IMG/VR virus record: IMGVR_UViG_3300019458_000024
Location: 62,001 to 126,000 of that record
Direction: 5' to 3' (one strand)
Origin: a virus
Length of the DNA: 64,000 nucleotides
The translations under genes and the position numbers were made by a program. This document shows, one piece after another, positions 25,886 through 41,196 of this stretch (its first letter is position 1; the number at the start of each line of letters is the position of its first letter). The notes beneath the pieces are model-generated. The model was given only the letters and a program-made list of their open reading frames with translations. It searched no databases and was not told the origin of the DNA.

Positions 25886-26146
25886 ATGAGAATGAGATCA
25901 GATGAAGAAGTAAATGTGATGCGGTCCGAGGTTTGTGACCTATATGATAAGTGGATGTTGGACCTCATGGACTTCGCTAGAGCTAAGAACTCTGCTGGCA
26001 TTAAAGAAGATCCCTATCTTTACGCTATTAATATCTACGCATCAGCAGCACAGTTTTTGGTTGACCGTGTCCAGGACCTTATGAAAAAGATGGGCGGCAT
26101 GACTGTAGAATACGCTTCCTCTAAAAAAGAAGTTGATAATTCGTGA
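25886..26146 (+). CDS. Helical hypothetical protein
   Basis: 86 residues, mainly helical, with a conserved-looking segment AINIYASAAQFLVDRVQDLM. Its stop overlaps a GTG start of the next gene. Confidence 0.65.
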   Translation: MRMRSDEEVNVMRSEVCDLYDKWMLDLMDFARAKNSAGIKEDPYLYAINIYASAAQFLVDRVQDLMKKMGGMTVEYASSKKEVDNS

Positions 26147-26316
26147 TTTTTACTGAACCTGACCACGAAGTCTGTCATAAGTGTAATAGGGAAACTACGT
26201 GGATTCCTGTTAAGGGAGGAAGGTATTTAAAATGCTCTGGTTGTGGAGACAGGTTTCTTTGTAGAAAGAATTGTGAGCATTTAGATTGTAAAGACGCTAG
26301 GGAAGGAGAATATTAA
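26143..26316 (+). CDS. Zinc-ribbon microprotein
   Basis: 57 residues from GTG 26143 (GTGA overlap). CHKCNRETTW, CSGCGDRFLC and a CEHLDC end give a ribbon plus an extra Cys pair. Directly precedes the IMPDH/GMPR-like gene. Confidence 0.6.
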   Translation: MIFTEPDHEVCHKCNRETTWIPVKGGRYLKCSGCGDRFLCRKNCEHLDCKDAREGEY

Positions 26317-26322
26317 AATAAA

Positions 26323-27342: not shown

Positions 27343-27346
27343 AACA

Positions 27347-27364
27347 GTGTAGAATGACCTTATA
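27347..27364 (+). promoter_or_regulatory. GTGTAGAATGACCTWATA element, copy 5
   Basis: TTATA variant. Starts four bases after the stop of the IMPDH-like gene; ATG of the next gene is two bases past its end. Confidence 0.75.
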
Positions 27365-27366
27365 GT

Positions 27367-27543
27367 ATGGATGACAATTCTTATAAGGCCGGATTTGAAG
27401 ACGCTGTACTAATTGTTAAAACTGCGCTATTAGCTCATAAAGAGCCCCCTATTCCTGGTGAGTCTGTATGGTTGGACACGGATTACACAGCTGCCTGGAA
27501 TGAGCTTTACTCAAAGGTTATGGAAGAGATTGATGGACTCTAA
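27367..27543 (+). CDS. Small hypothetical protein
   Basis: 58 residues, MDDNSYKAGFEDAVLIVKTA at the start, ending KVMEEIDGL. Near-leaderless after element copy 5. The YKAGFEDA opening is similar to the YQKGFKNG repeat in the gene at 12565. Overlaps the next gene by 11 bases. Confidence 0.65.
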   Translation: MDDNSYKAGFEDAVLIVKTALLAHKEPPIPGESVWLDTDYTAAWNELYSKVMEEIDGL

Positions 27544-27754
27544 AATAAACAGTCAAATTGTTGAAATTTCAGAGGATTTTGATGTAACCTTTAATGCGTT
27601 TCTTGAGGGCGTGTACGCACTACTGCGAAAAGATGGCATTTCCGATACGGCGATAACTTTAGCCATTCTACAATCATTGACTAATATTATTGTGAGTATG
27701 GCTATGCAGTGTATTACCAAAGATGAGTTCATCGCTATATTGAGTGAATCTTAG
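27533..27754 (+). CDS. Small helical protein, possible paralogue group
   Basis: 73 residues. FNAFLEGVYALLRKDGISDT and AITLAILQSLTNIIVSMAMQ form hydrophobic helices, then a KDEFIAIL end. The arrangement resembles genes at 28084 and 33035 and, less clearly, 27783. Confidence 0.65.
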   Translation: MDSKINSQIVEISEDFDVTFNAFLEGVYALLRKDGISDTAITLAILQSLTNIIVSMAMQCITKDEFIAILSES

Positions 27755-27782
27755 AGCACCAGGATTGGAAAGATTAATTGAT

Positions 27783-28082
27783 ATGTTTAAAAAAATAAAA
27801 TTGGAAAATATTAATAAATCCCGCGAGCTTGTAGAACATGATGGAATGTCAATAACTTTAGCGATTTCCAATTTTGTCTCCGCTGCGCAATTGAGCGGAC
27901 ATAATATGGACACTATTCTCATGTCTTTGTATTCTGTCCTTTTTCCAATAGCTATGGATGCGGGTTACGGATGTGGACTCACAAAAGATTTCCTCCTTAG
28001 AAAAACAGGTGATTACTACAAACCTGGTCCGTTAACTTGTGATTTATCACAAACAACAATTGATAAGAAAGTAGCCAATTAA
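27783..28082 (+). CDS. Small helical protein, possible paralogue group
   Basis: 99 residues from ATG 27783; a GTG at 27744 would add 13. Contains HDGMSITLAISNFVSAAQLS and a TKDFLL motif comparable to the KDEF/KEIF ends of its neighbours. Unrecognised function. Confidence 0.55.
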   Translation: MFKKIKLENINKSRELVEHDGMSITLAISNFVSAAQLSGHNMDTILMSLYSVLFPIAMDAGYGCGLTKDFLLRKTGDYYKPGPLTCDLSQTTIDKKVAN

Positions 28083-28083
28083 A

Positions 28084-28389
28084 ATGTCTGAAGAACTAAA
28101 ACCTGATATTAAATATTACGAAAAGACGCCTGAAACGTCAGAGCTTCACAGTCAACTAGAATTGCAACTCAGTAATGTTATTAACAGTTTTTACGCAGAA
28201 GCTGTATTAAAGAAGCATGATCCCAATATGGTTGGGGCAATTGTTGAATCTGTCATTAGTCAAGCTTCGGCACTGATTGCAGTCAAGCGAAACATTCCAA
28301 AGGAAATTTTCGTGGTCCAATCTGGGATTGACTACGATGCGATGGTCCAGACTAGTCAAGAGTATGAAAACAAAGACAGGTTGGACTAG
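28084..28389 (+). CDS. Small helical protein, possible paralogue group
   Basis: 101 residues. LELQLSNVINSFYAEAVLKK and VESVISQASALIAVKRNIPK-EIF repeat the helix-helix-KxxF layout of neighbouring genes. Acidic C-terminus. Confidence 0.65.
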   Translation: MSEELKPDIKYYEKTPETSELHSQLELQLSNVINSFYAEAVLKKHDPNMVGAIVESVISQASALIAVKRNIPKEIFVVQSGIDYDAMVQTSQEYENKDRLD

Positions 28390-28390
28390 T

Positions 28391-28696
28391 ATGAATCAAT
28401 ATGAATCATACCTTTGTGGGTCTCCTGACACTGGATATCATTACGTAAACTACGTATGGAATACGTCAAATACGTCGTATCTAGAAAAGATGGATAAATG
28501 CAGTTCAAAATATTGGACCCTTACGGAGTGTATTATTGATGCGCTTAAAGGATTCAGCCAGTTGGGTGCAAAGGCAGAAGATAAGGTATTTGTTTATGAG
28601 CCGACTGGAGTAGGTGTAGGTTGTTTTCCATTGGTAGACGACCTTAGAATTGTAGACGTGCGCTGGAAACCTCTAAAACAGTGTAGAATGACCTAA
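28391..28696 (+). CDS. Hypothetical protein
   Basis: 101 residues from the ATG two bases after the preceding stop. Tyr/Asn-rich N-terminus and a beta-rich C-terminal half (DKVFVYEPTGVGVGCFPLVD). The last codons and stop lie inside element copy 6. Confidence 0.65.
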   Translation: MNQYESYLCGSPDTGYHYVNYVWNTSNTSYLEKMDKCSSKYWTLTECIIDALKGFSQLGAKAEDKVFVYEPTGVGVGCFPLVDDLRIVDVRWKPLKQCRMT

Positions 28697-28698
28697 CT
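28681..28698 (+). promoter_or_regulatory. GTGTAGAATGACCTWATA element, copy 6
   Basis: Diverges at the last positions (CCTAACT). It contains the TGA of the upstream gene; the next ATG is at 28700, one base after the element. Confidence 0.7.
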
Positions 28699-28699
28699 T

Positions 28700-29260
28700 A
28701 TGAAACAAAGATGGTTATTGAAAAAGACTTATGCATTGCCTATCCGAGGTTTTTGGTGTAATGAAGGTGACTACACATGGGAAGACTGGCATGAGGAAAA
28801 CAAGAAGAAGTATCCCGTCAGGTATTTTCTTCAAGAAGATTTGACAATGTGGTTTAGAGTAAAGATCCGTAACAGAGTTAGCAACGCATGGTACTGGCTT
28901 CGCACCCACTTGTGGAATCGTTATCACATCATAAACATTAGTAACAAGGCCAATAAATACAACTGGGGCTGGATTGAATGTGACCAAGCAATACTCTATG
29001 CTTGCTTTAAAATTCTCAGTAACTTTGTTGAAAAAGAGATGAAATACAACTGCTATTATGTCCCTGCCACAGAACACTGTCCTGAATGGGATCAGAGGGA
29101 GACTGAGAAAGAGATTCGTGCACTATACCAGTGGTGGACAGAGGAGCGCCCTAAAGAACTTGAAACAGAACGGTATTACGGAGCGGGCGAAGCTGGTGAT
29201 GCTAAGGACAATGAAATGCTAGAAAGGCTGCTCAAAATTCGTAAAAATTTGTGGAGCTAG
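28700..29260 (+). CDS. Trp-rich conserved phage protein
   Basis: 186 residues, near-leaderless. INISNKANKYNWGWIECDQA and ILYACFKILSNFVEKE form the conserved centre; the Y-x-W-G-W-x-x-x-D-x-x-x-L-x-A-x-F pattern recurs in phage proteins of similar size. It is followed by an acidic helical region and ends KIRKNLWS. Function unknown. Confidence 0.7.
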   Translation: MKQRWLLKKTYALPIRGFWCNEGDYTWEDWHEENKKKYPVRYFLQEDLTMWFRVKIRNRVSNAWYWLRTHLWNRYHIINISNKANKYNWGWIECDQAILYACFKILSNFVEKEMKYNCYYVPATEHCPEWDQRETEKEIRALYQWWTEERPKELETERYYGAGEAGDAKDNEMLERLLKIRKNLWS

Positions 29261-29261
29261 T

Positions 29262-29603
29262 GTGGAGTACCTTAAAAAGACATTTACCGTAAGTTTAGGG
29301 AGTAAAAAATACAGTAGCAATTGGGCTAGAGCGTTCGGTCTGTGCCCTGTTTGTGAAAAAAAAGAAGACAAGTGCGTTTGTCCTGAAGAGGATCTTTTGA
29401 CAGATGAAGATTTGAATATGATTGAAGAGGCGCAAAGACTTGTACTTGATTTTTTTAAGGGTGATGTTGATAAGGCCACTTTATGGTTTAAGATTGAGAA
29501 TCCTATGTTAGGCAACGTATCACCATCCGACATGATCAAATGTGGGAGAATTAAAAAGCTTTTGAGATTTATCAAAACATCTGTTGATGGAGAAGGACCA
29601 TGA
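29262..29603 (+). CDS. DUF2384 (MbcA/ParS)-like domain protein with Cys knuckle
   Basis: 113 residues from GTG 29262. N-terminal CPVCEKKEDKCVCPEED forms a metal-knuckle; residues about 65-107 (KGDVDKATLWFKIENPMLGN and PSDMIKCGRIKKLLRFI) match the MbcA/ParS antitoxin toxin-binding domain, which normally pairs with RES toxins. No toxin gene lies next to it. It could act as a phage anti-toxin, or as an unrelated adaptor with the same fold. Confidence 0.6.
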   Translation: MEYLKKTFTVSLGSKKYSSNWARAFGLCPVCEKKEDKCVCPEEDLLTDEDLNMIEEAQRLVLDFFKGDVDKATLWFKIENPMLGNVSPSDMIKCGRIKKLLRFIKTSVDGEGP

Positions 29604-29809
29604 TCAACCGTAAAATATTGGTGCCCGTACCTGGTAAAACAGGTCCGTGGATGGAAGTAAGAAAACAGCATATTTGGATTTATGGTCCAGATCTTGAAAA
29701 TGGCGATATGCCTATTTGGGCCACGCTTACCAATGATGAAGCTATTCATTTGCGTGATTTGCTTTGCGAGGTATTTGGTCGCCCCCCCTCTGCCTATTGT
29801 TCCTGCTAG
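29600..29809 (+). CDS. Small hypothetical protein
   Basis: 69 residues, ATGA overlap with the upstream stop. Beta-rich start (ILVPVPGKTGPWMEVRKQHI) and a helix with EAIHLRDLLCEVFG. Unrecognised. Confidence 0.65.
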   Translation: MINRKILVPVPGKTGPWMEVRKQHIWIYGPDLENGDMPIWATLTNDEAIHLRDLLCEVFGRPPSAYCSC

Positions 29810-29869
29810 AAAACCGCATATTAGACATGGACACGATTGTTGTTGTTCTATTTGTATTACGGGGGATGT

Positions 29870-30082
29870 ATGAAATATACAATTGAAACTGATTACTGTG
29901 GAATTTTTGAAGCTAAATGTGATAAGTACCCAGACGTGGCTGGAGTTGGATCAAATCCCATGGCTGCATTACAAAGGTTAGTGGGAAAACTTTTAGATAA
30001 ATTGGAAGAAAACGAATTGGAAGACGACGAAATGCTTGATTCTCTTCATGAAGAAGATTGTCTTTGTAAGGAGTGTCGCTAA
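29870..30082 (+). CDS. HicB-like small protein
   Basis: 70 residues. CGIFEAKCDKYPDVAGVGSN and PMAALQRLVGKL resemble the partial RNase H-like fold of HicB antitoxins (strand-strand-helix with a G-x-G-x-x-P-x-x-A-L turn). There is no DNA-binding domain and no HicA toxin beside it. The C-terminus is acidic and ends CLCKECR. Confidence 0.5.
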   Translation: MKYTIETDYCGIFEAKCDKYPDVAGVGSNPMAALQRLVGKLLDKLEENELEDDEMLDSLHEEDCLCKECR

Positions 30083-30084
30083 TT

Positions 30085-31431
30085 ATGTTTGAGAGTTGGA
30101 ATAGTTATCCAAAGATATGGAATATTGGCCATCCTAAAGCTACAACATTGTTCCAAGGTACTGTAATTGTTGAGGAAAAGCTTGACGGCTGTTTTCCTGG
30201 AGAGACAGTTGTGCACATGGCAGACGGCAGTAAACGTGCTATACGAGAATTGGTTGATAATCGTATAACTGACCCTGTTCGATGTTTCGATCTTGAGAAA
30301 AAAGAATATACGCAAAGTCCTATTAAAAATTGGTTTTCTTATCCTCAATCCCACAAAAAATCTGTTCGTGTTGTGCTGCAAGGCAGGAACTCGGCGTCAA
30401 GGAGTTTTTTTAGATGCAGTACAGACCACCTTATATTTACTCAAAGAGGGTGGGTACCTGCTTGTAAGTTAAGTTCAGCGGATTCTGTCCTTATCCCAGA
30501 TAAAGAATCATTTTTTATTATGCAGCCTATATATTGTGTAGAGGATGTGGTGTCTACAAGATTTTTTGATATTGAAACAGGCAAACATAATTACTTAGTT
30601 TCTGACGAGGGGGTTTTAGTTCATAATTCTCAGCTATCATTTGGACGATTTGGAGATCAAATCAAAATTAGAAGTAAAGGCAGAGAGTTCGATATTGACG
30701 GCCCGGATAGTCTTTTTGAAAAGGCTGCAGAGGTTGTGAAAATGCTGGCGCCAAATCTTCACGAAGGTTGGACTTATCGTGGAGAATATCTTGCTAAGCC
30801 AAAACACAACGCTTTGGCGTATGACCGTATTCCTAATAATCACATTATGATTTTTGATATTGCTACTAATGTAGACAACTACTTAGGCTACGCAGAGAAA
30901 AAGATTGAGGCAAACAGAATTGGCCTTGAAACAGTTCCTGTTTATCTTGTTGGAACTTTTGATAGCGCTATTCCGTTTATGGGCTTGCTTGACCGTATTA
31001 GTGTTCTTGGTGGTCAAAAAATTGAGGGAATTGTTGTAAAGAATTATTCTCAATTCACTACAGATGGTAAGCCCATGATGGGTAAATACGTGTCTGAGCA
31101 GTTTAAAGAGGTTCATGGCCACGAGTGGACTAAGGACAATCCTAAGCCCGTTGACGTATTTGGTGCCATTATAGCTAAATATGTTACAGAGGCTCGCTGG
31201 CATAAAGCAGTGCAGCATATGCGAGAAAAAGGAATGCTAGAGAATTCTCCCCGCGACATTGGCGCTTTAATAAAAGAAGTGAGAGAAGATTTCTCAGTTG
31301 AATGCGCTGATGAGATTAAAGAGGAGCTTTGGCGTTGGTTCATGAAGAAGATAGGGGCAAATGCTGTTACTCGCGGTATTCCTGAATGGTATAAAATGAA
31401 ACTTCTAGAAGGGGCTTTTGGTGAGAAATGA
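30085..31431 (+). CDS. RNA ligase-like nucleotidyltransferase interrupted by a mini-intein
   Basis: 448 residues before splicing, 302 after. Host-protein motifs: KLDG (32-35), the adenylation lysine motif I; NHIMIFDI (motif III-like); KIEGIVVKNY (motif IV-like) and MMGKYVSEQFKEV (motif V). The intein sits directly after KLDG, so EEKLDG-SQLSFG is restored on splicing. The C-terminal helical part suits a T4 Rnl2/Rnl5-type RNA ligase, though a small ATP-dependent DNA ligase is not excluded. Such enzymes repair tRNA nicks made by host anticodon nucleases. Unspliced enzyme should be inactive. Starts behind AAGGAG. Confidence 0.85.
   Translation: MFESWNSYPKIWNIGHPKATTLFQGTVIVEEKLDGCFPGETVVHMADGSKRAIRELVDNRITDPVRCFDLEKKEYTQSPIKNWFSYPQSHKKSVRVVLQGRNSASRSFFRCSTDHLIFTQRGWVPACKLSSADSVLIPDKESFFIMQPIYCVEDVVSTRFFDIETGKHNYLVSDEGVLVHNSQLSFGRFGDQIKIRSKGREFDIDGPDSLFEKAAEVVKMLAPNLHEGWTYRGEYLAKPKHNALAYDRIPNNHIMIFDIATNVDNYLGYAEKKIEANRIGLETVPVYLVGTFDSAIPFMGLLDRISVLGGQKIEGIVVKNYSQFTTDGKPMMGKYVSEQFKEVHGHEWTKDNPKPVDVFGAIIAKYVTEARWHKAVQHMREKGMLENSPRDIGALIKEVREDFSVECADEIKEELWRWFMKKIGANAVTRGIPEWYKMKLLEGAFGEK
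30190..30627 (+). other. Mini-intein in RNA-ligase-like gene
   Basis: 146 residues. Starts CFPGETVVHMADG (splicing block A with Cys1), block B CSTDHLIFTQRGWVPA with the TxxH-like TDH, block F near VEDVVSTRFFDIET, and ends VLVHN with Ser as +1. No endonuclease domain. Insertion is inside catalytic motif I. Confidence 0.92.
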
Positions 31432-31640
31432 CCAGGATTGAAAGACATATTTGGGCTTCTGCATTTGCAACGGAATTCATTAGATTGACCCCAGTTTGGG
31501 ACAGCACTTCAGTAGCTTCATGTGCAGGAGTTGCTGATCTTTGTTTAGAGAAGTTTCGAGGATTGATTAGAAGTGAAGACTGTGTTGATATTACTCCCTA
31601 TAAAGAGGGAGAGGAATGGACTGCTGAAGATGAAGAATGA
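31428..31640 (+). CDS. Small hypothetical protein
   Basis: 70 residues, ATGA overlap with the ligase. WASAFATEFIRLTPVWDSTS and ASCAGVADLCLEKFRGL show a helix-rich pattern of the kind seen in phage proteins with an A-x-x-A-D-x-x-x-x-x-Y/F motif. Acidic tail. Confidence 0.65.
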   Translation: MTRIERHIWASAFATEFIRLTPVWDSTSVASCAGVADLCLEKFRGLIRSEDCVDITPYKEGEEWTAEDEE

Positions 31641-32007
31641 CTACAGTTTTGAAGCTTTTAAAAAGGCTTTTCCTAAACTCTTTGAGCAAGGGGTGCGGTG
31701 TGGCTTTTCTTTGCCTAAAGGTTGGGGTCCTATTGTATGGAAACTCTGTGAAAATCTCGATAGCGTTGAACACAGGAACGTGCCTTTAGTCATTGAGCAG
31801 GTGAAATCTAAATTTGGTGGTTTAAGGTTCTACACTAAAGGTGAGACAAAAGAGGATGCCTACCACATCAAGCACATAGAATATACTTCTTATCTGGTGT
31901 GTATGTCTTGTGGTACAACTGAACGTGTGAGTGAAGATTTGGATGAATGGGGTGGGGGTAGGTCTTTTTGTCCTCCATGTAATGAAGAGCGTAAGAATAG
32001 GATGTAG
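31630..32007 (+). CDS. Conserved protein (GWxPIVxxLCE...KFGGLRFY family)
   Basis: 125 residues from ATG 31630. CGFSLPKGWGPIVWKLCENL and EQVKSKFGGLRFYTKG are signatures of a family of about 130 residues in phages and bacteria; a zinc knuckle CMSCGT...FCPPC follows. Function unknown. The stop TAG lies inside element copy 7. Confidence 0.75.
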   Translation: MKNDYSFEAFKKAFPKLFEQGVRCGFSLPKGWGPIVWKLCENLDSVEHRNVPLVIEQVKSKFGGLRFYTKGETKEDAYHIKHIEYTSYLVCMSCGTTERVSEDLDEWGGGRSFCPPCNEERKNRM

Positions 32008-32019
32008 AATGACCTTATA
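32002..32019 (+). promoter_or_regulatory. GTGTAGAATGACCTWATA element, copy 7
   Basis: First base is A instead of G; the rest matches the TTATA variant. Here an AAAGGGATAA Shine-Dalgarno follows and the gene starts 15 bases on, unlike the near-leaderless copies. Confidence 0.7.
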
Positions 32020-32033
32020 GAAAGGGATAAGTT

Positions 32034-32240
32034 ATGTTGAATTTTGGAGTTATAGTCGTTGTTGTTGTTTGTATGGCACTTGCCACTTTTGTAGGTGGTT
32101 TTTTTGGTGCGAGATTTGAAAATTATTGGCTGGCTGCTTTGATAGCCGCTGTAGTTTTGGAATTTGTTAGTTTTTGTATGAAGTTGGGTGATAGTGTCGC
32201 GTCGAAAGAGGACGAGAATACGACGAAAGAAAATAAGTGA
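32034..32240 (+). CDS. Small membrane protein
   Basis: 68 residues with two close transmembrane helices (about 4-25 and 30-50) and a charged tail DENTTKENK. Unrecognised. Confidence 0.7.
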   Translation: MLNFGVIVVVVVCMALATFVGGFFGARFENYWLAALIAAVVLEFVSFCMKLGDSVASKEDENTTKENK

Positions 32241-32241
32241 A

Positions 32242-32529
32242 ATGACTGAAATTACAAATACTCATTTACAGAAGAAGTTTGAATTGCATATTACCTTAAG
32301 CAATAAGGTAGAAATCCAGGGATGGAAAAGCTCATCTATACATGGAGATCCGTTGCTAGGGCCAGCTTTGAAACACTATTTGACGACATATGCCGGAACT
32401 AAGGAAGAGGCGGAAGACAAACTCAAAGACGGACTGCAAGTCCTTTATTTAATGGATAAAAAGCATGAAATTATCAGGGCTAAGATCGAATATATTGTCT
32501 TTGACGCGATATTTAAGGAAAATAGGTAA
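32242..32529 (+). CDS. Hypothetical protein
   Basis: 95 residues from ATG 32242. Beta-rich (KFELHITLSNKVEIQGWKSS) followed by helix (TKEEAEDKLKDGLQVLYLM). Unrecognised. Confidence 0.65.
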   Translation: MTEITNTHLQKKFELHITLSNKVEIQGWKSSSIHGDPLLGPALKHYLTTYAGTKEEAEDKLKDGLQVLYLMDKKHEIIRAKIEYIVFDAIFKENR

Positions 32530-32539
32530 AGGCGGTTCT

Positions 32540-32794
32540 ATGAGCGGACTAAGTTCCACTAATGTTAGGATAATGCAGGCTTACGCAGATAAATTTAAGA
32601 GAAATTTAAACAAGGCTCTGGAAGAGTTTGAAAGTGACATGCAAAAGAGGTGCACACATACAGAGGACAACGGTAGAAGCTCTTTGGTTCGTATAGGTGC
32701 TTTGTCTACGGAAGGTCGTTGTGGGGTCTGCGGAGCGTGTGTCAGTCTTCCTGAAGAGAATAGTGCGCATAAAACGTGGCTAAACAGAAAATAA
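32540..32794 (+). CDS. Helical protein with zinc knuckle
   Basis: 84 residues. Helix YADKFKRNLNKALEEFESDM, then CTHTEDN and CGVCGACVSL, giving three or four Cys with a His for zinc. Start behind AAAGGCGG. Confidence 0.65.
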   Translation: MSGLSSTNVRIMQAYADKFKRNLNKALEEFESDMQKRCTHTEDNGRSSLVRIGALSTEGRCGVCGACVSLPEENSAHKTWLNRK

Positions 32795-32795
32795 C

Positions 32796-33032
32796 GTGTG
32801 GAAGACTGGTTTATATTTTTTTGGTGTTATTGTTGTTTGTATACTTTTAGCGATAATGGGAATTATTTTGTTGGATTACCACGATGACGCGCCTTTTTGC
32901 GATGAGTGGGCGAAAGTGCTAGTGCCCTGCATAACCGATTCTTTAGTTGATAAAATTTGCCTAGAAAATAAGTGCATACGAATATGTACGAAAGTAAAAG
33001 GTTCAGATGTTAAAGTTTGCCATGAGCCGTAA
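32796..33032 (+). CDS. Membrane-anchored Cys-rich protein
   Basis: 78 residues from a GTG. One transmembrane or signal-anchor helix (about 5-26), then an external-looking domain with six Cys (PFCDEWAKVLVPCITDSLVD, CLENKCIRICTK), which could form disulphides in the periplasm or outside the cell. Confidence 0.6.
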   Translation: MWKTGLYFFGVIVVCILLAIMGIILLDYHDDAPFCDEWAKVLVPCITDSLVDKICLENKCIRICTKVKGSDVKVCHEP

Positions 33033-33034
33033 TA

Positions 33035-33340
33035 ATGAATAAGAAACTAAATAAAAATCAGATAATTGGAGAAGCGGTAGACACGACTTTTGAAGTGTTG
33101 GAGAAGTTGCAAGTTTTAATAGCTGATTGTATAGATGACGCTTTATATGTCCACGGACGCGCTCCTGAAAGTGCTGGTATTGGAGTTATACACGCTCTGC
33201 TCAGAGCGGCTTCAGGTATAGCTGTGGTTGCTAAGATTAAAAAAGAAGCATTCTTACAATACGCAGGTAGTGTGTTTGATAAAATTGACGATTCTGGGCT
33301 AATGTGTTTAGTTGAAGACGAAAAAGATGTTATTAATTGA
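33035..33340 (+). CDS. Small helical protein, possible paralogue group
   Basis: 101 residues. Two hydrophobic helices (FEVLEKLQVLIADCIDDALY, GVIHALLRAASGIAVVAK) then KKEAFLQY. The layout parallels the genes at 27533 and 28084. Confidence 0.65.
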   Translation: MNKKLNKNQIIGEAVDTTFEVLEKLQVLIADCIDDALYVHGRAPESAGIGVIHALLRAASGIAVVAKIKKEAFLQYAGSVFDKIDDSGLMCLVEDEKDVIN

Positions 33341-33355
33341 AAGGGAAAATGTAAA

Positions 33356-33451
33356 ATGTGTGTCTGCACTGGGGTGGTTGAAGTAGGAATAATAGCTGCT
33401 GTTTGTGGGTTCTGTTCTTGGATTAAGAAGAAGTGCAAGCGGAGCAAGTAA
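33356..33451 (+). CDS. 31-residue Cys-rich hydrophobic microprotein
   Basis: MCVCTGVVEVGIIAAVCGFC followed by SWIKKKCKRSK. A short hydrophobic helix with five Cys and a strongly basic end fits a small membrane peptide. Preceded by AAGGGAAAA. Too short for homology arguments. Confidence 0.5.
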   Translation: MCVCTGVVEVGIIAAVCGFCSWIKKKCKRSK

Positions 33452-33452
33452 A

Positions 33453-33656
33453 GTGTCTAAGAAGGACAAAACCAAGACTGATAAGTCTCTTGGTGCTTTT
33501 GAATTAATGGCTTGGGAGCGGATATTTTGTGCTATTTTAGCTTCAGGCAAGTACGAGGTAGACGAAGCCGCTGGCGTAGCGGATTCTGCATTTGAAGAGT
33601 ATAAAATTAGAAGTCCTAAAGAAATGTTAGAAAGGAAAAAAGATGGAAAGGTTTAG
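33453..33656 (+). CDS. Small helical hypothetical protein
   Basis: 67 residues from GTG 33453, with GGAG in the end of the gene above. Similar in layout to the gene at 31428 (WERIFCAILASGK, AAGVADSAFEEYKIR). Overlaps the Fic gene by 14 bases. Confidence 0.65.
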   Translation: MSKKDKTKTDKSLGAFELMAWERIFCAILASGKYEVDEAAGVADSAFEEYKIRSPKEMLERKKDGKV

Positions 33657-34131
33657 TAAAGATGAGTTGGAGTTCTTTGTAAGAGAATCAAATGCTATTG
33701 AGGCTATTAGACGTGATCCTACGAAAGCAGAACTGGAGGAGGCTGAGCGATTCTTAAAACTAGAACAAGTCACTGTTCAAGATTTAGAGCGGTTTGTTAA
33801 AGTATACGAACCACGCGCGCTATTGCGCTCCAAAAAGGGAATGAATGTAATTATTGGTAAACACACGCCCCCGTCCGGTGGACCTATTATTCCGGATATG
33901 CTCATGCAAATTGTAGAAAATGCCAATAATAGAGAACATCCGTTTGATGTTCATCAAGAATACGAGACACTCCATCCGTTCCTAGATGGCAACGGACGCA
34001 GTGGTAGAATCCTGTGGGCGTATCAAATGGTGCGCCAAAACTTTTGGCCTAATCTTCAATTAGGTTTTTTACATTGTTGGTATTACCAATCCTTAGACCA
34101 AAGTAGACGATTGAAAGGTAAAGTAAAGTAA
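33643..34131 (+). CDS. Fic-domain protein
   Basis: 162 residues. HPFLDGNGRSGR at 111-122 is a complete Fic active site with catalytic His and phosphate-binding Gly/Asn/Arg. Near the N-terminus S16-NAI-E20 resembles the (S/T)xxxE inhibitory motif of many Fic proteins. Fic enzymes transfer AMP or other phosphorylated groups to target proteins. In a phage this could modify host translation or replication factors, or counter defence. Compact size suggests the core domain alone. TAATG overlap with the next gene. Confidence 0.85.
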   Translation: MERFSKDELEFFVRESNAIEAIRRDPTKAELEEAERFLKLEQVTVQDLERFVKVYEPRALLRSKKGMNVIIGKHTPPSGGPIIPDMLMQIVENANNREHPFDVHQEYETLHPFLDGNGRSGRILWAYQMVRQNFWPNLQLGFLHCWYYQSLDQSRRLKGKVK

Positions 34132-34370
34132 TGTCTGGAAATTCGAAAACTAGAACTAGGTTGTATACTAGGCCGGGTATTAAAACCCACACTGAGGCGG
34201 AGCAGGTTCGTAATGAACTTGTAGCCCAAGGTAAAGTGAAGAACCAGCCTATAGATAAGGTTAAAATTATTTATCGAGCTAACCGTAATGTTTTTGATGT
34301 AGTGGCTTTCGGACCGCAAAGAGAGTCTAAAGAAGAGACACATCAAGACGAACAAGAGAGCGAAGAATAA
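34131..34370 (+). CDS. Hypothetical protein coupled to Fic gene
   Basis: 79 residues; start shared with the Fic stop (TAATG) and stop overlapping the next start. The HTEAEQVRNELVAQGKVKNQ segment and a VKIIYRANRNVFDVVA strand-turn-strand are visible, acidic tail at the end. Could be a Fic partner by position. Confidence 0.6.
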   Translation: MSGNSKTRTRLYTRPGIKTHTEAEQVRNELVAQGKVKNQPIDKVKIIYRANRNVFDVVAFGPQRESKEETHQDEQESEE

Positions 34371-34906
34371 TGCGTCGCATATGGTTAGATATTGAGACTA
34401 CTGGTCTTGATATGGAGAAAGATGTAATTCTTGAGGTTGGTATAGTCCTAGCAGACACTTTTGATGTCAGAGCCCGAGCTTCCTGGTTGGTTACCCCAAC
34501 CTTACAGGACTTATCTAATCTTCGTCCTCGCGTAAGGGAGATGCATACTAAGAATGGTCTACTGGAAGAGGTGATGGAGCCAGACACTCTTCCTCTATAC
34601 GCGGTAGAAAATCAAATTATAGAATGGCTGAAAGATAACATGCCACCAGAAGACTCCTGGAAGTTGGCGGGCTCTTCTATTCATTTTGATCGTGCTTGCA
34701 TAGCAAAGTACATGCCTAAGTTTGAAAATAGGCTTCACTACAGAATGCTCGATGTGTCAAGCATAAAAGAGAGTTTAATGGATTGGGCTCCAGATCTTGT
34801 GGAAGCTAGACCGGACGCGAAGGCTTTACATCGAGCCGTTCCAGACTGTCTAGACTCTCTGGAAGAGTGGCAATACTACAAAACAGTATTGCTTGGTGAT
34901 TTTTAA
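34370..34906 (+). CDS. Oligoribonuclease (DEDDh exonuclease)
   Basis: 178 residues, the usual length of Orn. IWLDIETTGLD gives the first Asp/Glu pair (D7, E9), LAGSSIHFDR the second region and HRAVPDCLDSLEEW the terminal His and Asp. RVREMHTKNGL is also family-typical. Orn degrades 2-5-nt RNAs and can degrade dinucleotide signalling products. In phage it may complete host mRNA recycling; degrading defence-signal dinucleotides is a possible second role. Confidence 0.9.
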   Translation: MRRIWLDIETTGLDMEKDVILEVGIVLADTFDVRARASWLVTPTLQDLSNLRPRVREMHTKNGLLEEVMEPDTLPLYAVENQIIEWLKDNMPPEDSWKLAGSSIHFDRACIAKYMPKFENRLHYRMLDVSSIKESLMDWAPDLVEARPDAKALHRAVPDCLDSLEEWQYYKTVLLGDF

Positions 34907-34930
34907 TTCATCTTTTGATACGATCTTTAT

Positions 34931-35200
34931 GTGTTGAAAGAAAAGAAAAGTCTCGGAGTTAATCATACTTCCGTAGTTAGTAACTCAAACAAAGGTCCTA
35001 TAAAATGGTGCAAAGGTAAATCAACCTCTGCACACAATCCATATTGGATAAAGAACAATGATTGGAGCGCCGACACTTGGCAGTTGAAGTGCCGATCGTG
35101 CGGCAGAACTCTTGGAACCAAACGGATAATTAACGGCGAAGATTCAATAAGTGTTAAGAAATTCAATGGTTATGAGAACTTCCTTGGAGGTCCTAAGTAG
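34931..35200 (+). CDS. Zinc-binding small protein
   Basis: 89 residues from GTG 34931. WCKGKSTSAHNPYW and LKCRSCGRTLGTKR form a likely ribbon. Ends YENFLGGPK. Unrecognised. Confidence 0.6.
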   Translation: MLKEKKSLGVNHTSVVSNSNKGPIKWCKGKSTSAHNPYWIKNNDWSADTWQLKCRSCGRTLGTKRIINGEDSISVKKFNGYENFLGGPK

Positions 35201-35204
35201 GACT

Positions 35205-35477
35205 ATGCATACTAGGGAAGAAATACTTATTAGTTTCTTAGAGTTATCTAGTCGTCCTAATAGTTGTCCTGTTTTTGAACTGGAGCCTTTTATGTGGTAC
35301 AGGAAGAAAGAAGAAGCAACGCATATTGCTAAAGCGTGTGGAGTGGAAGCTGAATTCCAAGCATTAGCTGGATACATCCATTATGATGATATGCAGTCCG
35401 TACAGTCGTTTTTAGGCGTCACCGACCATTGCATGACTCAATTATTTGAAGAGAATGTAAGGCTTCCTAGAGCTTAA
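35205..35477 (+). CDS. Hypothetical protein
   Basis: 90 residues from ATG 35205. Helical, with FMWYRKKEEATHIAKACGVE and a central AEFQALAGYIHYDD. Unrecognised. Confidence 0.65.
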   Translation: MHTREEILISFLELSSRPNSCPVFELEPFMWYRKKEEATHIAKACGVEAEFQALAGYIHYDDMQSVQSFLGVTDHCMTQLFEENVRLPRA

Positions 35478-35480
35478 TAG

Positions 35481-35756
35481 ATGAAAGTCGTCGTATACTC
35501 TCTTGACGAGACAGAATCAGATCCGACTCTCATGATGTCAGGAAATGTCGTACCTATCCGACATATAGAAACATGTAAGATATTGTGGGAGGGTAATTTG
35601 GACATAGATCCTGTAGAGGGTGATATTTTAACTTTGCCAAGTTCTGACACTGAGATTAAAAATATGTATGTAGTTACTCGTATATTTCAATTAGATTTAG
35701 AAGAGCCTACATTGGCATTGTTTATTTCTACAGATGATGACTCTGAATATTCTTAG
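35481..35756 (+). CDS. Hypothetical beta-rich protein
   Basis: 91 residues. Strand-rich with DPVEGDILTLPSSDTEIKNM, a pattern of small phage beta-barrel proteins with a G-D-x-L turn; acidic tail DDDSEYS. Confidence 0.65.
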   Translation: MKVVVYSLDETESDPTLMMSGNVVPIRHIETCKILWEGNLDIDPVEGDILTLPSSDTEIKNMYVVTRIFQLDLEEPTLALFISTDDDSEYS

Positions 35757-35765
35757 TAGATTTTT

Positions 35766-35996
35766 ATGTTTTATACACGCCCTAATGTGGATGCTGTTTT
35801 GGAGTGGGAGACAGAGCAGAAAACAGAACCAATCTCTTTTCGCGATCTAGGTGATTTTCCCCGAATACAGGACTCTCTGATAAAAGAGGGACAAGAGTGC
35901 TATTTTTGTGGTAGTGGTTATTTAGCAGTAACCAGAACTAGAGAGGGGCATCCTATCTGTGAAAAGTGTGTAGAAAATGGCATACCTGGTAGGTAG
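35766..35996 (+). CDS. Zinc-knuckle small protein
   Basis: 76 residues. CYFCGSGYLAVTRTREGHPI-CEKC is a typical treble-clef-like or ribbon metal site at the C-terminus. The N-terminal half is acidic and helical. Confidence 0.7.
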   Translation: MFYTRPNVDAVLEWETEQKTEPISFRDLGDFPRIQDSLIKEGQECYFCGSGYLAVTRTREGHPICEKCVENGIPGR

Positions 35997-35997
35997 A

Positions 35998-36264
35998 TTA
36001 ATCGTTAATACTCACTCTTACCTGCTTGCACTCAGTAACACTTATCACACCATAGTGTCGGCCAAAAGTGGTGGCACCGTGATTAACATCTTTGCAAACC
36101 TTTAAAGTTTCTGTGCAAAATACACTTTCTACGTTTCGTGTTTTGAAAAGTGTAACACCTTGAAAACACCAACGTATTTTTTGTGGAACTTTAGGGGTTT
36201 TTGTGTTAATAGGAACTCTCGCGCAGTGCATACACAGTAGAGATAAAACTAATAATATTTTCAT
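35998..36264 (-). CDS. Lone leftward secreted protein
   Basis: 88 residues on the minus strand inside a long rightward region. It opens MKILLVLSLLCMHCARV, a signal-peptide-like segment; the Cys residues are not in a good lipobox. The mature part has four Cys (IRWCFQGV, VFCTETLKVC, TECKQVRV) that could form two disulphides outside the cytoplasm. Its isolated, opposite orientation suggests a separately regulated morphon gene such as an exclusion or envelope function. Confidence 0.6.
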   Translation of the reverse strand: MKILLVLSLLCMHCARVPINTKTPKVPQKIRWCFQGVTLFKTRNVESVFCTETLKVCKDVNHGATTFGRHYGVISVTECKQVRVSIND

Positions 36265-36304
36265 CACTTATATTGAAGCTTAATTATTTGATTTAGTCAA
36301 TTCT

Positions 36305-36322
36305 GTGTAGAATGACCTTATT
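36305..36322 (+). promoter_or_regulatory. GTGTAGAATGACCTWATA element, copy 8
   Basis: TTATT variant. It restarts rightward transcription after the lone leftward gene. The next start is about 30 bases downstream. Confidence 0.7.
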
Positions 36323-36351
36323 AGAGCAGCCGGTTTCTTTAGTTACAAAGA

Positions 36352-36528
36352 ATGTATGTAAATATGCGTTTCTACTTACATTATAAAGATCACGAAGGGG
36401 TAGAGATTAAAGAGTACATTCCGTTGGGGAACGGGAAGGATGCCGTTTCATCCTACCGCAGAATTTTGATCCGAAAAGTTCAATTGGTAATAACTATAAT
36501 ACAATCTAAATTGGTGAACGACGAGTAG
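36352..36528 (+). CDS. Small hypothetical protein
   Basis: 58 residues from ATG 36352; ATG 36364 in the same frame is an alternative. RFYLHYKDHEGVEIKEYIPL suggests a beta-hairpin followed by a basic helix. No strong ribosome-binding site. Confidence 0.5.
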   Translation: MYVNMRFYLHYKDHEGVEIKEYIPLGNGKDAVSSYRRILIRKVQLVITIIQSKLVNDE

Positions 36529-36537
36529 GAGTTTTAT

Positions 36538-36807
36538 ATGAAAAGAGTTTTAATTATTTATGAACTGGTGCCGTTTTCGACAAAAATATTTGATCTCGCA
36601 GTCACACCAGACCAATACGCAAAGATTTTGAAATGCCACGGTCACTACATCAATGGCGGGGATTGGATGAAAGAATGTGAATGGCTGACTGATTTTCTCA
36701 ATGACTATCCTCCAGTATATCAATCAGACGATAAGATTGGGACGTTTCTGCCTTACAAACCAGAAAACAAGTTTGATTTGATCATCGTGACAGGATTGGT
36801 GGTATAA
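36538..36807 (+). CDS. Conserved small phage protein (KCHGHYIN family)
   Basis: 89 residues with a TAGGAG site. VLIIYELVPFSTKIFDLAVT followed by ILKCHGHYINGGD and an acidic helix WLTDFLNDYP are characteristic of a small phage family. Function unknown. Confidence 0.7.
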   Translation: MKRVLIIYELVPFSTKIFDLAVTPDQYAKILKCHGHYINGGDWMKECEWLTDFLNDYPPVYQSDDKIGTFLPYKPENKFDLIIVTGLVV

Positions 36808-37020
36808 GTGGCGGAGAGGAATCCAATGCGGTCATCTCTCAAACTGTTTCCAGATACAGTTGAGAACCATAAAAAATACGACTGTAAATTCTATGAAAAG
36901 TGTCTGGATACTGCTTCGGAGAATAATTGGCCACAATTTCATTGTCGATCCTGTAAAGCCTATGAAAAGGAGGAGATAGTTCCAGACGTGTCTGGTTTTT
37001 CTATCATTTTAGATGAATGA
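36808..37020 (+). CDS. Zinc-binding small protein
   Basis: 70 residues from a GTG directly after the upstream stop. CKFYEKCLDTASENNWPQFH-CRSC is a recurring phage/bacterial pattern C-x5-C...F-x-C-x-x-C. Overlaps the next gene by eight bases. Confidence 0.7.
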   Translation: MAERNPMRSSLKLFPDTVENHKKYDCKFYEKCLDTASENNWPQFHCRSCKAYEKEEIVPDVSGFSIILDE

Positions 37021-37807
37021 TAATAAGAAAAATAATGCAGAAGCACATTGGCGCAGTCAGCCTGAGTATGTAGAACATGTAGGAAAAATGAAGCAGATTA
37101 TGCTTCCTGTATACAGGGACGCTACAGACAATACTGCATGTTTTGGATGGTTATGGATAGATGATGGTATTGTGTGTGATCAAGTGGACTGTGGTCTCCG
37201 TTCTTACTGTAAACAAACTTGGCAACTAGCTCAAGTGGCTAAAGCGGAGTCTGTGTCCTTTGAAAAGGAACTTACCTACACCGAAATATATAAAAAGGAT
37301 CTTGTTAGCAAGACGCATTCTAAAAAGAAAAACTCCGTAAACAGAGGAAAGTATAAAAACTCTCCTTTATACAATAGAAAAGGTTATTGTGATCAGGGGC
37401 GTTTGGTGGATAGGTTAGTGACGCGCTTTAAAGAGACTATAGGAACCTATGAAACGCCTCCATCCGATTGGCGACCTGCTAAGAAAACTGTAGGTAAAGT
37501 AGCTATAAAAGCTACAGCCAGTTACCATTCTCTAATTGTCAATGGTGTGATAGTGGCGAGAATATGGACTGATTCTTCTAAAGTGGCGACTATAGATATT
37601 GTTCCAGAATTGGTTACATCTATGGTGCACTTGGTCAAAAGTATCAAATCTCTCAATGATTCGCAAAAAGATTCAATAAACATGCCAACTAAGATTCCAG
37701 ACACTTGTTTAAATAAGACTAGGCCATGTACTCACAGAGTTTCAGTGACTACAGAAAGTTCAATTGTTAAGGTAGCGAACACTATAAAATATAGATTTCA
37801 ATTTTAA
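37013..37807 (+). CDS. Hypothetical protein
   Basis: 264 residues. The N-terminal third has CFGWLWIDDGIVCDQVDCGL and CKQTWQLAQVAKAE, a Cys-rich helical region; the centre is very basic (TYTEIYKKDLVSKTHSKKKN); the C-terminal third is beta-rich. It lies directly upstream of the CobT-like gene and ends right before element copy 9. No family recognised. Confidence 0.65.
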   Translation: MNDNKKNNAEAHWRSQPEYVEHVGKMKQIMLPVYRDATDNTACFGWLWIDDGIVCDQVDCGLRSYCKQTWQLAQVAKAESVSFEKELTYTEIYKKDLVSKTHSKKKNSVNRGKYKNSPLYNRKGYCDQGRLVDRLVTRFKETIGTYETPPSDWRPAKKTVGKVAIKATASYHSLIVNGVIVARIWTDSSKVATIDIVPELVTSMVHLVKSIKSLNDSQKDSINMPTKIPDTCLNKTRPCTHRVSVTTESSIVKVANTIKYRFQF

Positions 37808-37825
37808 GTGTAGAATGACCTTATA
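37808..37825 (+). promoter_or_regulatory. GTGTAGAATGACCTWATA element, copy 9
   Basis: TTATA variant directly after the stop of the 264-residue gene. The CobT-like ATG is two bases past its end. Confidence 0.8.
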
Positions 37826-37827
37826 CT

Positions 37828-39693
37828 ATGGCGGGTAAAAATAGAAAAATCCAAATCTTTGAATCGTCCATCGAGCGTGTGGCTCGTATTTTGTCAAAGA
37901 AATGGAAGATTCGTGTTGTATTTCAAACAGATAGGTGTGAAACCTCTGGTTCTACCATTTATCTTCCAGTACTTCCAGATAACGCTAGTACAGATCTTAC
38001 CAACGCCATGCAGGGCTATTTGGACCATGAGGCTGCACATGTCGTATACACAGACTTTAAAGCGCTCAACAGGGTCAAAAAGTTGCCTAAAACTATGACG
38101 GTGCTCAACGCCCTAGAAGATCCCAGAATTGAGAAGAAGTGGTGTGATCTCTATCCGGGTGCACGGATTAATCTAAAAAGAGCCCAAGAATGGGCTCTAA
38201 ATAAAGTGGCCGAAGAAAAGGAAATGGTTGATCCTGAGGATGGGGTAAAGAAGAAGATGCGGTCCTGGAACGGGCTTACTGATCTTGGTAAGTTTCTCCA
38301 CGCATCCATTACATATGCCTGCAATGCTTTTGATGATAGCCATTGGTTTCTGAAAGATATTGTTGAAGCTGACATTATGAATGATGTCAAAAAGTACTCT
38401 TCTTATTTTCAAAAAGCCCTTGCAGTTGACAGTACTACCGAGCTTGTTCCTATCGCTAAAGAATTGCTAGAAAAACTAGGACAAGATGATCCGGAACAGC
38501 CAGACCCAGAAGAGTCTGAAGAGGAGTCCGAAGAAGATGGTACCGGCACATCTGGAAGTCCGGCATCTAGCGGTGGAAGCTCTCCACAATCTCAAGTAAT
38601 GAACAAACAACCAAAAAATCAAAAGCAGACAGGACCTAGTCAAGCTCAGGCTGTTCCAGGCATGTTTGCTGACAAAAATGCTAACAAGAGTAGGTACGAC
38701 GTATCTGAAGAAGGCATTAAAAATGACCAAGATTTGACAAATCTTGCTGATCAGATTAAAGAAGCAGCCAAGCACGAACTAGTAAAAGAAGATTGCTATC
38801 TTGTATATACCACTGAAGGTGATTCAATTGAGCGCATCAAAGACGGAGATAGGATGCGTTATAAAGAATTCATGTTGGAATCTATTAGATTAGTAGCTCC
38901 AATGAAACGAAAAATGTCACGTAGTATGCTGGCTACCAAGCAATCTAATTGGGAGGGGGACAAGACCAGAGGTAAAATTAACCCGCGTAGGGTATACCAA
39001 GTGCCTATGGGAACGTCAAAAAGAGTGTTTCGCCAACGAGTAGAGTCTGAAGACTATGATACATGTGTGTTGATGATGGTTGACCACTCAGGATCAATGG
39101 CAGGCCCTTCGCTGGATTTGGCCGCTAAAACTTCTATTATTTTCGGAGAATTACTGAACCAAATTGGGGTACCTTTCTCTGTGTTGGGGTTCTCTACAGG
39201 TAGTGAATCCGTAGCCAGTGATCGTATTTCTAAAGCTTCAGATGAAGAGCGCACTTTGTATAGACGTTGGGGCAATCTATGGATTGGCGAATATAAAAAC
39301 TTTGAAGAATCTTGGTCTAGTGCTGGTCCTAAGATCATTAATATGGTTAGAAATAGTAAAATCAATACTTACGATGGTGAGAGTCTTAGGTATGGTGCAC
39401 AGGTTCTTTTGGCCCGTCCTGAGAAGCGCAAAATTCTATTTTGGCTAAATGATGGTTATCCGCAACCAAACTATGGTGATGATTATTCCGCACACACTAA
39501 GTATGCAAAAGACTGCGCTTTGGAAGTAGAAAAAGCTGTTGAGTTGTTTGCAATTGGTATCCGTACAGATGCAGTAAAACGTTTTTATAAAAATTGTGTG
39601 CAAGTCAATTCAGTTGAAGATCTTCCAAAAACGTGTTTGAGTGAACTTGACGCTCTGATTCGTAAAGGTAAAACTTATCATAGTAAGGGGTAA
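37828..39693 (+). CDS. CobT-like VWA protein with HExxH motif
   Basis: 621 residues. C-terminal von Willebrand A domain with the metal-site motif DHSGS near residue 419 and VLGFSTG, as in cobaltochelatase subunit CobT. N-terminal HEAAH (67-71) in YLDHEAAHVVYTDF has the HExxH form of zinc peptidases. A 70-residue acidic/Ser-Pro-Gln linker (EESEEESEEDGTGTSG) joins the halves. CobT works with the AAA+ protein CobS in cobalt insertion; no other cobalamin genes are seen here. With the CobS-like gene at 45413 it more likely forms a MoxR-VWA-type chaperone or remodelling machine. Confidence 0.8.
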   Translation: MAGKNRKIQIFESSIERVARILSKKWKIRVVFQTDRCETSGSTIYLPVLPDNASTDLTNAMQGYLDHEAAHVVYTDFKALNRVKKLPKTMTVLNALEDPRIEKKWCDLYPGARINLKRAQEWALNKVAEEKEMVDPEDGVKKKMRSWNGLTDLGKFLHASITYACNAFDDSHWFLKDIVEADIMNDVKKYSSYFQKALAVDSTTELVPIAKELLEKLGQDDPEQPDPEESEEESEEDGTGTSGSPASSGGSSPQSQVMNKQPKNQKQTGPSQAQAVPGMFADKNANKSRYDVSEEGIKNDQDLTNLADQIKEAAKHELVKEDCYLVYTTEGDSIERIKDGDRMRYKEFMLESIRLVAPMKRKMSRSMLATKQSNWEGDKTRGKINPRRVYQVPMGTSKRVFRQRVESEDYDTCVLMMVDHSGSMAGPSLDLAAKTSIIFGELLNQIGVPFSVLGFSTGSESVASDRISKASDEERTLYRRWGNLWIGEYKNFEESWSSAGPKIINMVRNSKINTYDGESLRYGAQVLLARPEKRKILFWLNDGYPQPNYGDDYSAHTKYAKDCALEVEKAVELFAIGIRTDAVKRFYKNCVQVNSVEDLPKTCLSELDALIRKGKTYHSKG

Positions 39694-39696
39694 ATA

Positions 39697-41196
39697 ATGA
39701 TTGAATTCAAGCACAATATTGATGTCCATCCCATTCAGAAAATGGGTGGAGACCACATGGTTGTAGCAGCCGCTAGGGTGTCTACACAAGGACAGGAGGC
39801 AGAAGACTTAGTCAATATGCCGGCTGATGAGCAATTTGGGTTGATCAATTATCTGATGAAGTTTCGCCACGGCACCCCTTTTGAACACAGTGCAATGACA
39901 TTTTTCGTTAACGCACCAATTTTCGTTTGGCGAGAGTGGCATCGTCACAGGATTGGTTTTTGTATTGACGGCGAGACCAAGATTTGGACGCAAAGCTACG
40001 CAGCAAACTCAGGTTTAACTGTCAGAAAACAAAGCATCAAAGAGTTGTATAACAACTGGCATAACGGTGTTATAGATTCCATAGGTAGAGTTAGATATTT
40101 GGCATCTGTTAAAGCTCAAAAGTTACGGTGCCTGAATGAAGAAACAAAATTGTTCGAAGCAGCCTCGGCATTAGATATATTGTCCACTGGACAGAAGGAA
40201 GGTTTTTTACTAGAAACTGATCACGCTAAACACAACAATCTTATTGCGTCAAAAGATCATAGAATTCTAACTGTTGACGGTTGGGCAACTATTAGTGATT
40301 TGCGTGGCGGCGAATTAATTTATGTGAATGGAAAAAGAAGTGCCCATGTTGGTGAACCAAAAATGCCTCCAGCGCTTCGTGCAGGCATAGGTGTTTGGAC
40401 CTCTATGATGCGGCGAGATTTGATCAAAAAAGTTGACCGTTGTTATATTTGTAACGATCAATTTAACGCGGAAGAGTTGGTTTTAGATCACGTAATTCCT
40501 GTAGTAAGTGATTTGACCAAAGCCTTGGATGTTAGAAATTTACAACCATGCTGTGTCAATTGCCACCAACGAAAATCGGATAGCGAGCAGAAATTTGCTA
40601 CTCGTGACATTAGAGCAGGTGCCGTACTGTCACGAGTAGCACGAAAGCCCATTGCAGTTGGACCTCGTGATATGTATGACGTAGTTATGCCAGATCCGTG
40701 GCATAACTTTGTTGCAAACGGAATAGTAGTGCACAATTCGTATAATGAGGAGAGCGCAAGATATACACAGTTGAAGCCGGTGTTTTATATTCCACATCGT
40801 GAACGAGAAATGATGAAAGTAGACGGTTGGAAACCTGGTCGTCCAAAATTTGTCCGGTGTGAAGACAAATCTGTATATACCCAATTGTATTTCAATCTCG
40901 CGCATTCCTATACGGCTTCTTACGAAGCATATCAACGCAACCTTGCCCTTGGTATAGACCCAGGTTTGGCTCGCGATTGTTTACCTGTTGGTATTTATTC
41001 TAGTTGTTGGGTCACTTGCAATCCGCGTTCTCTGATGTCTTTCCTGTCTTTAAGAATTCATAACGAAGATGCGAAGTATGTTTCATACCCACTGTATGAG
41101 ATTGAAATGGCTGCTAAAACTTGTGAGAAAATGTTCGAACAAGGTTGGCCACTTACTTATAAAGCATTTATTGAGAATGGTAGAGTCGGCCCGTGA
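39697..41196 (+). CDS. thyX: Flavin-dependent thymidylate synthase ThyX with intein
   Basis: 499 residues before splicing, 240 after, the normal ThyX length. The precursor is interrupted at RHRIGF-SYNEESARY, inside the ThyX signature RHRx7S that binds FAD and dUMP. Flanking ThyX segments (FRHGTPFEHSAMTFFVNAPI, WREWHRHR, and RDCLPVGIYSSCWVTCNPRS with SLRIHNEDAKYVSYPLYEIE) are intact. ThyX makes dTMP from dUMP with methylene-tetrahydrofolate and FADH2. Splicing is required for activity. Directly between the CobT-like and uracil-DNA glycosylase genes. Confidence 0.95.
   Translation: MIEFKHNIDVHPIQKMGGDHMVVAAARVSTQGQEAEDLVNMPADEQFGLINYLMKFRHGTPFEHSAMTFFVNAPIFVWREWHRHRIGFCIDGETKIWTQSYAANSGLTVRKQSIKELYNNWHNGVIDSIGRVRYLASVKAQKLRCLNEETKLFEAASALDILSTGQKEGFLLETDHAKHNNLIASKDHRILTVDGWATISDLRGGELIYVNGKRSAHVGEPKMPPALRAGIGVWTSMMRRDLIKKVDRCYICNDQFNAEELVLDHVIPVVSDLTKALDVRNLQPCCVNCHQRKSDSEQKFATRDIRAGAVLSRVARKPIAVGPRDMYDVVMPDPWHNFVANGIVVHNSYNEESARYTQLKPVFYIPHREREMMKVDGWKPGRPKFVRCEDKSVYTQLYFNLAHSYTASYEAYQRNLALGIDPGLARDCLPVGIYSSCWVTCNPRSLMSFLSLRIHNEDAKYVSYPLYEIEMAAKTCEKMFEQGWPLTYKAFIENGRVGP
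39961..40737 (+). other. HNH-endonuclease intein in ThyX
   Basis: 259 residues, CIDGETKIWTQ at the start and FVANGIVVHN at the end, Ser as +1. Block B is SKDHRILTVDGWATI. The central part carries CYICNDQFNAEELVLDHVIP and RNLQPCCVNCHQRKSD, an HNH nuclease with two C-x-x-C zinc pairs. This nuclease class is less common in inteins than LAGLIDADG. Confidence 0.92.

Follow-up and report, generated by a model that had tools for sequence, protein, structure and literature searches.

To our knowledge, the Fic proteins linked to phages so far are either addiction toxins such as Doc or defence genes of the host. In classes I–III, a glutamate on an inhibitory helix prevents ATP from taking up a competent pose; when the glutamate is absent, the γ-phosphate of ATP occupies its place and meets the second arginine of the catalytic motif, and an E-to-G change relieves inhibition in each of these classes, as set out in PMC3667792. 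The inhibitory helix is a separate protein in class I pairs (VbhT–VbhA, EcFicT–EcFicA and Fic-1–AntF). Class II proteins carry it N-terminally in the same chain, and PMC6408439 describes such an N-terminal glutamate in CdFic of Clostridioides difficile, BtFIC and FICD. SoFic, or Sofic (S. oneidensis SO_4266), is a cellular defence gene of class II, with an N-terminal inhibitory helix, a full catalytic motif and, in a protein of about 374 aa, a C-terminal domain. Here we describe a viral variant of this already known kind of enzyme. It shares fold, catalytic motif and the principle of glutamate inhibition with the class I pairs, but its candidate inhibitory helix lies in the same chain; it shares helix and motif with SoFic, but not the C-terminal domain.

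The window analysed here, a stretch of 64,000 nucleotides, comprises bases 62001–126000 of a virus record of 162,637 bases. The features of the Fic locus are as follows.

33405–33656, plus strand: upstream open reading frame of 83 aa that runs 14 bases into the Fic gene; family searches gave no match
33643–34131, plus strand: Fic gene with ATG start, 162 aa, compact phage-type protein of predicted class II
33688–33702, plus strand: inhibitory-helix motif SxxxE (S16-N-A-I-E20)
33973–34008, plus strand: catalytic Fic motif HPFLDGNGRSGR, residues 111–122 (H111–R122), compared across 94 proteins
34066–34095, plus strand: FLHCWYYQSL, residues 142–151, C-terminal signature of the phage family
34131–34370, plus strand: orphan open reading frame of 79 aa, predicted β-α-β-β domain with an acidic tail
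34370–34906, plus strand: DEDDh-type 3′–5′ exonuclease, the next gene in the run

The initial annotation had proposed a complete Fic site, an S-x-x-x-E element in the N-terminal helix and a TAATG junction to the 79-residue gene, and all three are present. The catalytic motif is intact and includes H111, the SxxxE element closes the first predicted helix (residues 6–19), with S16 inside the helix and E20 immediately behind it, and the start of the 79-aa frame overlaps the Fic stop. With an exact motif, a Pfam Fic match above threshold (29.4 bits, cut-off 24) and a predicted model that matches Fic structures, the product falls within the Fic/Fido superfamily. Its inhibitory motif reads S-x-x-x-E-A against the consensus (S/T)xxxE(G/N), residue 21 being alanine.

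Among 50,697 phage records, the only relative covering at least 80% of the query was found in the Roseobacter phage RDJL6 (UFK26723.1; 42% identity over 99%, E 1e-28). This protein belongs to the same phage family but comes from another phage with another host, is annotated as a hypothetical protein and has A where the window protein has G121. A further 35 phage records matched over 19–57% of the query. The Fic proteins of TP901-1, of streptococcal and Helicobacter phages, of Fusobacterium phage Fnu1, of a nudivirus and of WSSV resemble the window protein in motif or fold, but the phage records among them match within that partial range and the fold matches have E values of 0.008 or weaker. 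IMG/VR yielded 3 loci to a single-sequence scan, 50 to a four-row profile and 126 to a 52-row profile, the best 80 of these 126 being used. The four-row profile also returned 389 relatives from one genome each for 84,980 bacterial and archaeal species; among the best 80 of the 389, five were phage-type proteins, with E values no weaker than 2e-32 (the sixth had E 8e-10). Four of these five sit on contigs of 4–14 kb, among them L057 with its terminase and head–tail adaptor genes, and the fifth on a 998-kb Erythrobacter contig, where one of four neighbours matches a PHROG of unknown function. Pooled, these searches gave 132 entries, window and RDJL6 included. Many were repeat finds of one contig, and removing this redundancy left 94 distinct proteins, nearly all on virus contigs.

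When 53 phage-type and 40 cellular proteins were placed in one tree, a single branch of length about 3 divided the two groups with support of 99/97; because the branches are long and the program warned of an unsettled bootstrap, we make no claim about root or ancestry. Of 75 cellular loci the tree includes 40, chosen as the best-scoring ones in which 120 residues or more precede the motif, and 37 of the 40 carry (S/T)xxxE(G/N) upstream. Five rows (L003, L010, L015, L018 and L048) were left out of the alignment as duplicates, and L058 as a probable chimera; RDJL6 (L001) was kept out of it and joined separately to the tree and to the count of 94. Judged by sequence, the window gene thus belongs to a distinct, widespread and little-noticed family carried by many environmental phages. 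No description of this family was found in the titles and abstract openings of the open-licence papers that the literature searches brought up, a result that is not proof of absence; PMC12735786 uses FIC in another sense. In L058, a contig from a metagenome-assembled genome, a single frame at 4771–6444 runs from an apparent sigma-54-type regulator into a phage Fic, with the junction at the inhibitory helix; the fusion is probably a product of chimeric assembly.

Conservation in this family rules out a chance match to the Fic motif. Every one of the 94 distinct proteins has the motif residues H, P, D, G118, R119 and R122, and 93 have N117; the phenylalanine is kept in 87, with tyrosine in the remaining 7. 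The first glycine of the motif is found in 83 of 94. Cysteine takes its place in the other 11 (DCNGR for DGNGR); this exchange next to the catalytic Asn recurs at L011, L034, L045, L139, L158 and six further loci. S and E of SxxxE are likewise invariant, in 94 of 94. Part of the 94 had been retrieved with a pattern containing ESNxIE, but the 52-row set was gathered with patterns free of SxxxE, and it too shows both residues throughout (52 of 52). The position after the glutamate holds G or N in 86 of the 94 proteins, and A in the window protein alone. From the serine to the catalytic histidine the spacing is 82–108 residues (median 96), the protein length is 139–167 residues in 76 of 94, with start codons picked by rule, and F-[LM]-x4-Y-x2-L occurs close to the C terminus in 93 of the 94.

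AlphaFold2, run with the 52-row alignment, predicts the window protein at pLDDT 95.4 and pTM 0.90, and the top Foldseek matches of the model are FICD and then SoFic. Structural alignment by VIA-align gave CdFic (4x2d; Z 12.8, 3.1 Å, 146 aligned residues) and SoFic (3eqx; Z 12.0, 3.7 Å, 152 aligned residues) as the best matches; for helical proteins, a Z score under about 13 may be unspecific. The first 29 structural rows, IbpA among them, begin at model residue 1–7, and most are proteins with a comparable N-terminal helix. Class I and class III rows, at Z 7.8 to 8.7 overall, begin at residue 21–22 (EcFicT Z 8.7, VbhT Z 8.6; NmFic of class III, Z 8.6), so these proteins lack the N-terminal helix of the phage Fic; rows for AvrB and AnkX (Z 7.8–8.4) also begin at residue 1–2. 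The class labels of VbhT, SoFic and NmFic follow PMC3667792. CdFic (4x2c, 4x2d and 4x2e) resembles the window protein in its SNxIEG-type motif, with S31 and E35 aligned, but at 18% identity and with residues 8–220 of its 235-residue chain set against residues 1–155. A profile search also placed the phage motif in register with SNKIEG of CdFic, weakly, with 3.7 bits on that stretch. The model thus matches Fic proteins with an N-terminal brake over residues 1–155, CdFic and SoFic best, while being about 60 residues shorter and lacking the C-terminal domain of SoFic. S16, E20 and the start of the structural alignments place a glutamate-bearing helix ahead of the Fic core within one chain, as in class II.

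Because the conservation of SxxxE and the predicted fold agree, the earlier suggestion that this element autoregulates the enzyme is well supported at the level of sequence and model. AMP transfer, self-inhibition, a flap and a host target are what we infer from homology. In the resting state, E20, together with S16, would stand against R122 in the active site and keep ATP in an unproductive pose. Once this contact loosened, H111 would activate the hydroxyl of a protein held at the flap that precedes the motif, and AMP from ATP would be placed on that hydroxyl. Since the family retains the glutamate, the acidic residue and the arginines, we read it as an enzyme selected for switchable activity, involving AMPylation at least and possibly both directions. 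The title of the paper on CdFic, the best structural match, calls that enzyme 'inhibitory motif-independent', which, as far as a title goes, indicates that the inhibitory motif does not always govern activity and counts against our reading; the alanine that the window protein alone has at residue 21 weighs against it too. Several bacterial Fic proteins have gyrase B and ParE as their targets (PMC7479194); these two are natural first candidates, but the window sequence itself gives no pointer to either.

The Fic gene of the window is surrounded by genes for an RNA ligase, a DEDDh-type exonuclease, ThyX and a Toprim-like protein, the last below its cut-off. With 122 of 230 homologue-neighbour proteins scanned, 162 PHROG families were matched. 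The 25 commonest occur in 2–4 proteins each; 21 of them are replication, helicase, exonuclease, methyltransferase or integrase families, and the other four are one terminase and three unnamed families. Clustering of flank frames by blastp found no neighbour common across the phage Fic loci in the fetched flanks: the largest cluster, helicase-like by eye, reaches at most 10 loci and the second, integrase-like by eye, 5 loci, with gene calls made by a crude longest-ORF rule that mis-called or missed Fic itself at several loci. A portal-like frame (by eye) lies beside the homologue at L002. Since some homologues, there and at L057, have structural genes beside them, the neighbourhoods do not establish an early role for the family as a whole.

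A comparison within one group of phages identifies the gene as accessory. In RDJL6, Fic separates an 86-aa gene from an exonuclease gene. RDJL1 and RDJL2 have these two genes directly side by side, at 67–69% identity to RDJL6 for the 86-aa gene and 77–78% for the exonuclease, and show no Fic match at E 0.01. The RDJL6 gene is therefore a clean single-gene insertion that came without a partner and is absent from two sister phages. All three phages have R. denitrificans OCh114 as their recorded host, so the genus can infect OCh114 without Fic. Accessory status is shown for RDJL6 alone, because relatives of the exonuclease gave no empty-site locus for the window, and megablast found no phage record matching window positions 24000–44000; L186 and L059 likewise yielded no phage relative for such a comparison. 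Two RDJL6 annotations differ from those of its sisters: the 'integrase' at L001:1786–4197 is, by position only, a DNA primase in RefSeq RDJL1 and RDJL2, and the 'CRISPR/Cas system-associated' gene at L001:6464–7915 is an exonuclease there.

The single-gene insertion bears directly on the idea, raised in the initial annotation, that the 79-residue gene is a functional partner of Fic. Single-sequence AlphaFold2 gives its product a fairly confident small fold (pLDDT 81.9) with a β-α-β-β core, so the frame may well encode a real protein, judging from the model; its best fold comparison, Z 4.5, reflects a common small α-β arrangement that is not diagnostic. The small fold and the TAATG junction would suit a toxin paired with its antitoxin or inhibitor, and there is a precedent in AS1, a 47-aa protein encoded downstream of E. 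coli Sofic that counteracts it, as PMC12249575 relates. Such junctions are common here, however: 35 of 168 plus-strand raw frames of at least 50 aa, some surely not genes, end in a stop that overlaps the start of a further run, itself no shorter than 50 codons, and the stop of the 79-aa frame likewise overlaps the start of the next gene, at 34370, in the same way. Relatives of the product are missing from every set searched. The five stretches returned from the viral contigs included none, the one match among phage records (E 0.1, to an RNA phage polymerase on the other strand) was taken as chance, none appeared in any fetched Fic locus, and no family could be assigned (best PHROG E 0.11). The antitoxin motif (S/T)xxxE(G/N) is absent from both the 79-aa and the 83-aa frames, so the locus lacks the mark of a class I toxin–antitoxin pair. 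Matches between the 94 loci are confined to 4 of 210 frames on the downstream side and 10 of 231 on the upstream side, and link loci in pairs. With neither relatives nor antitoxin motif nor conserved neighbour, and with Fic arriving alone in RDJL6, the proposal of a partner is not supported, though AS1 keeps it conceivable, and we regard a toxin–antitoxin pairing as very improbable.

Three further readings concern what the enzyme does. The glutamate might make it a deAMPylase that restores host proteins such as gyrase after their AMPylation by Fic toxins or Sofic-type defence, a counter-defence role that we consider unlikely; the invariance of the glutamate speaks for it, as does the point that an always-on effector would have no reason to retain a brake. 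In Fic-1–AntF, according to PMC13327609, the AntF glutamate pairs with Fic-1 R146 and is essential for deAMPylation, whereas E139 and R143 are needed for AMPylation and dispensable for its reversal. Their equivalents here, D115 and R119, are also invariant, so selection seems to keep AMPylation too. That argument is not clean: EfFIC needs the acidic motif residue for deAMPylation as well (PMC6408439), and PMC13327609 gives conflicting accounts of R146, the counterpart of R122. A phage-borne defence or superinfection-exclusion gene acting like the bacterial abortive-infection protein Sofic is improbable, even though SoFic is the best PADLOC match (6.4e-11), Sofic protects bacteria from phage (PMC12249575), and integrase families occur near some homologues. 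The PADLOC match spans residues 67–134 only. The NCBIfam SoFic model, a full-length equivalog that matches 51 of 52 phage family members, gives the window protein 28.3 bits against a cut-off of 550 and covers residues 74–134 only, and the C-terminal domain that PMC12249575 reports as crucial for toxicity is missing. The best-named sequence matches are adenylyltransferases, and the window protein has the complete HxFxDGNGRxxR motif that AMPylating members carry; both stand against transfer of another group or modification of a non-protein target. Some Fido proteins do transfer UMP, phosphate or phosphocholine, or modify non-protein targets, and this precedent is what favours such an activity, to which we give the lowest credence of the readings considered here.

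We therefore favour, as the probable reading, an accessory protein AMPylase regulated by E20, possibly also a deAMPylase, that would act on a host protein and need no partner. Host-directed AMPylation is the likely part of it, judged from homology. A more specific version, in which a minimal self-braked Fic switches between writing and erasing AMP on a host protein of the gyrase/topoisomerase IV type and so shields phage replication from host Fic or Sofic, is doubtful but conceivable; if true, it would provide a phage-encoded eraser of AMP marks. A phage family of short Fic proteins that retains the inhibitory glutamate in every member found raises the question of why a virus would carry a protein-modifying enzyme with its brake engaged. 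Either an event of infection would release the brake, or the braked, AMP-removing form would be the useful one. Should a target be identified, AMPylation would join the protein modifications that phages use to redirect proteins of the host or to protect them.

The window holds several other genes of interest. Three appear to be interrupted by inteins: the RNA ligase gene at 30073–31431 (Hint match below cut-off), the ThyX thymidylate synthase gene at 39697–41196 (intein match at cut-off, with an HNH endonuclease) and the portal protein gene at 49700–52702 (intein match below cut-off). A CobT-like VWA protein of the cobalt chelatase type is encoded at 37828–39693 (Pfam 1.3e-29), and a phage-encoded IMP dehydrogenase/GMP reductase at 26323–27342 (6.6e-87).
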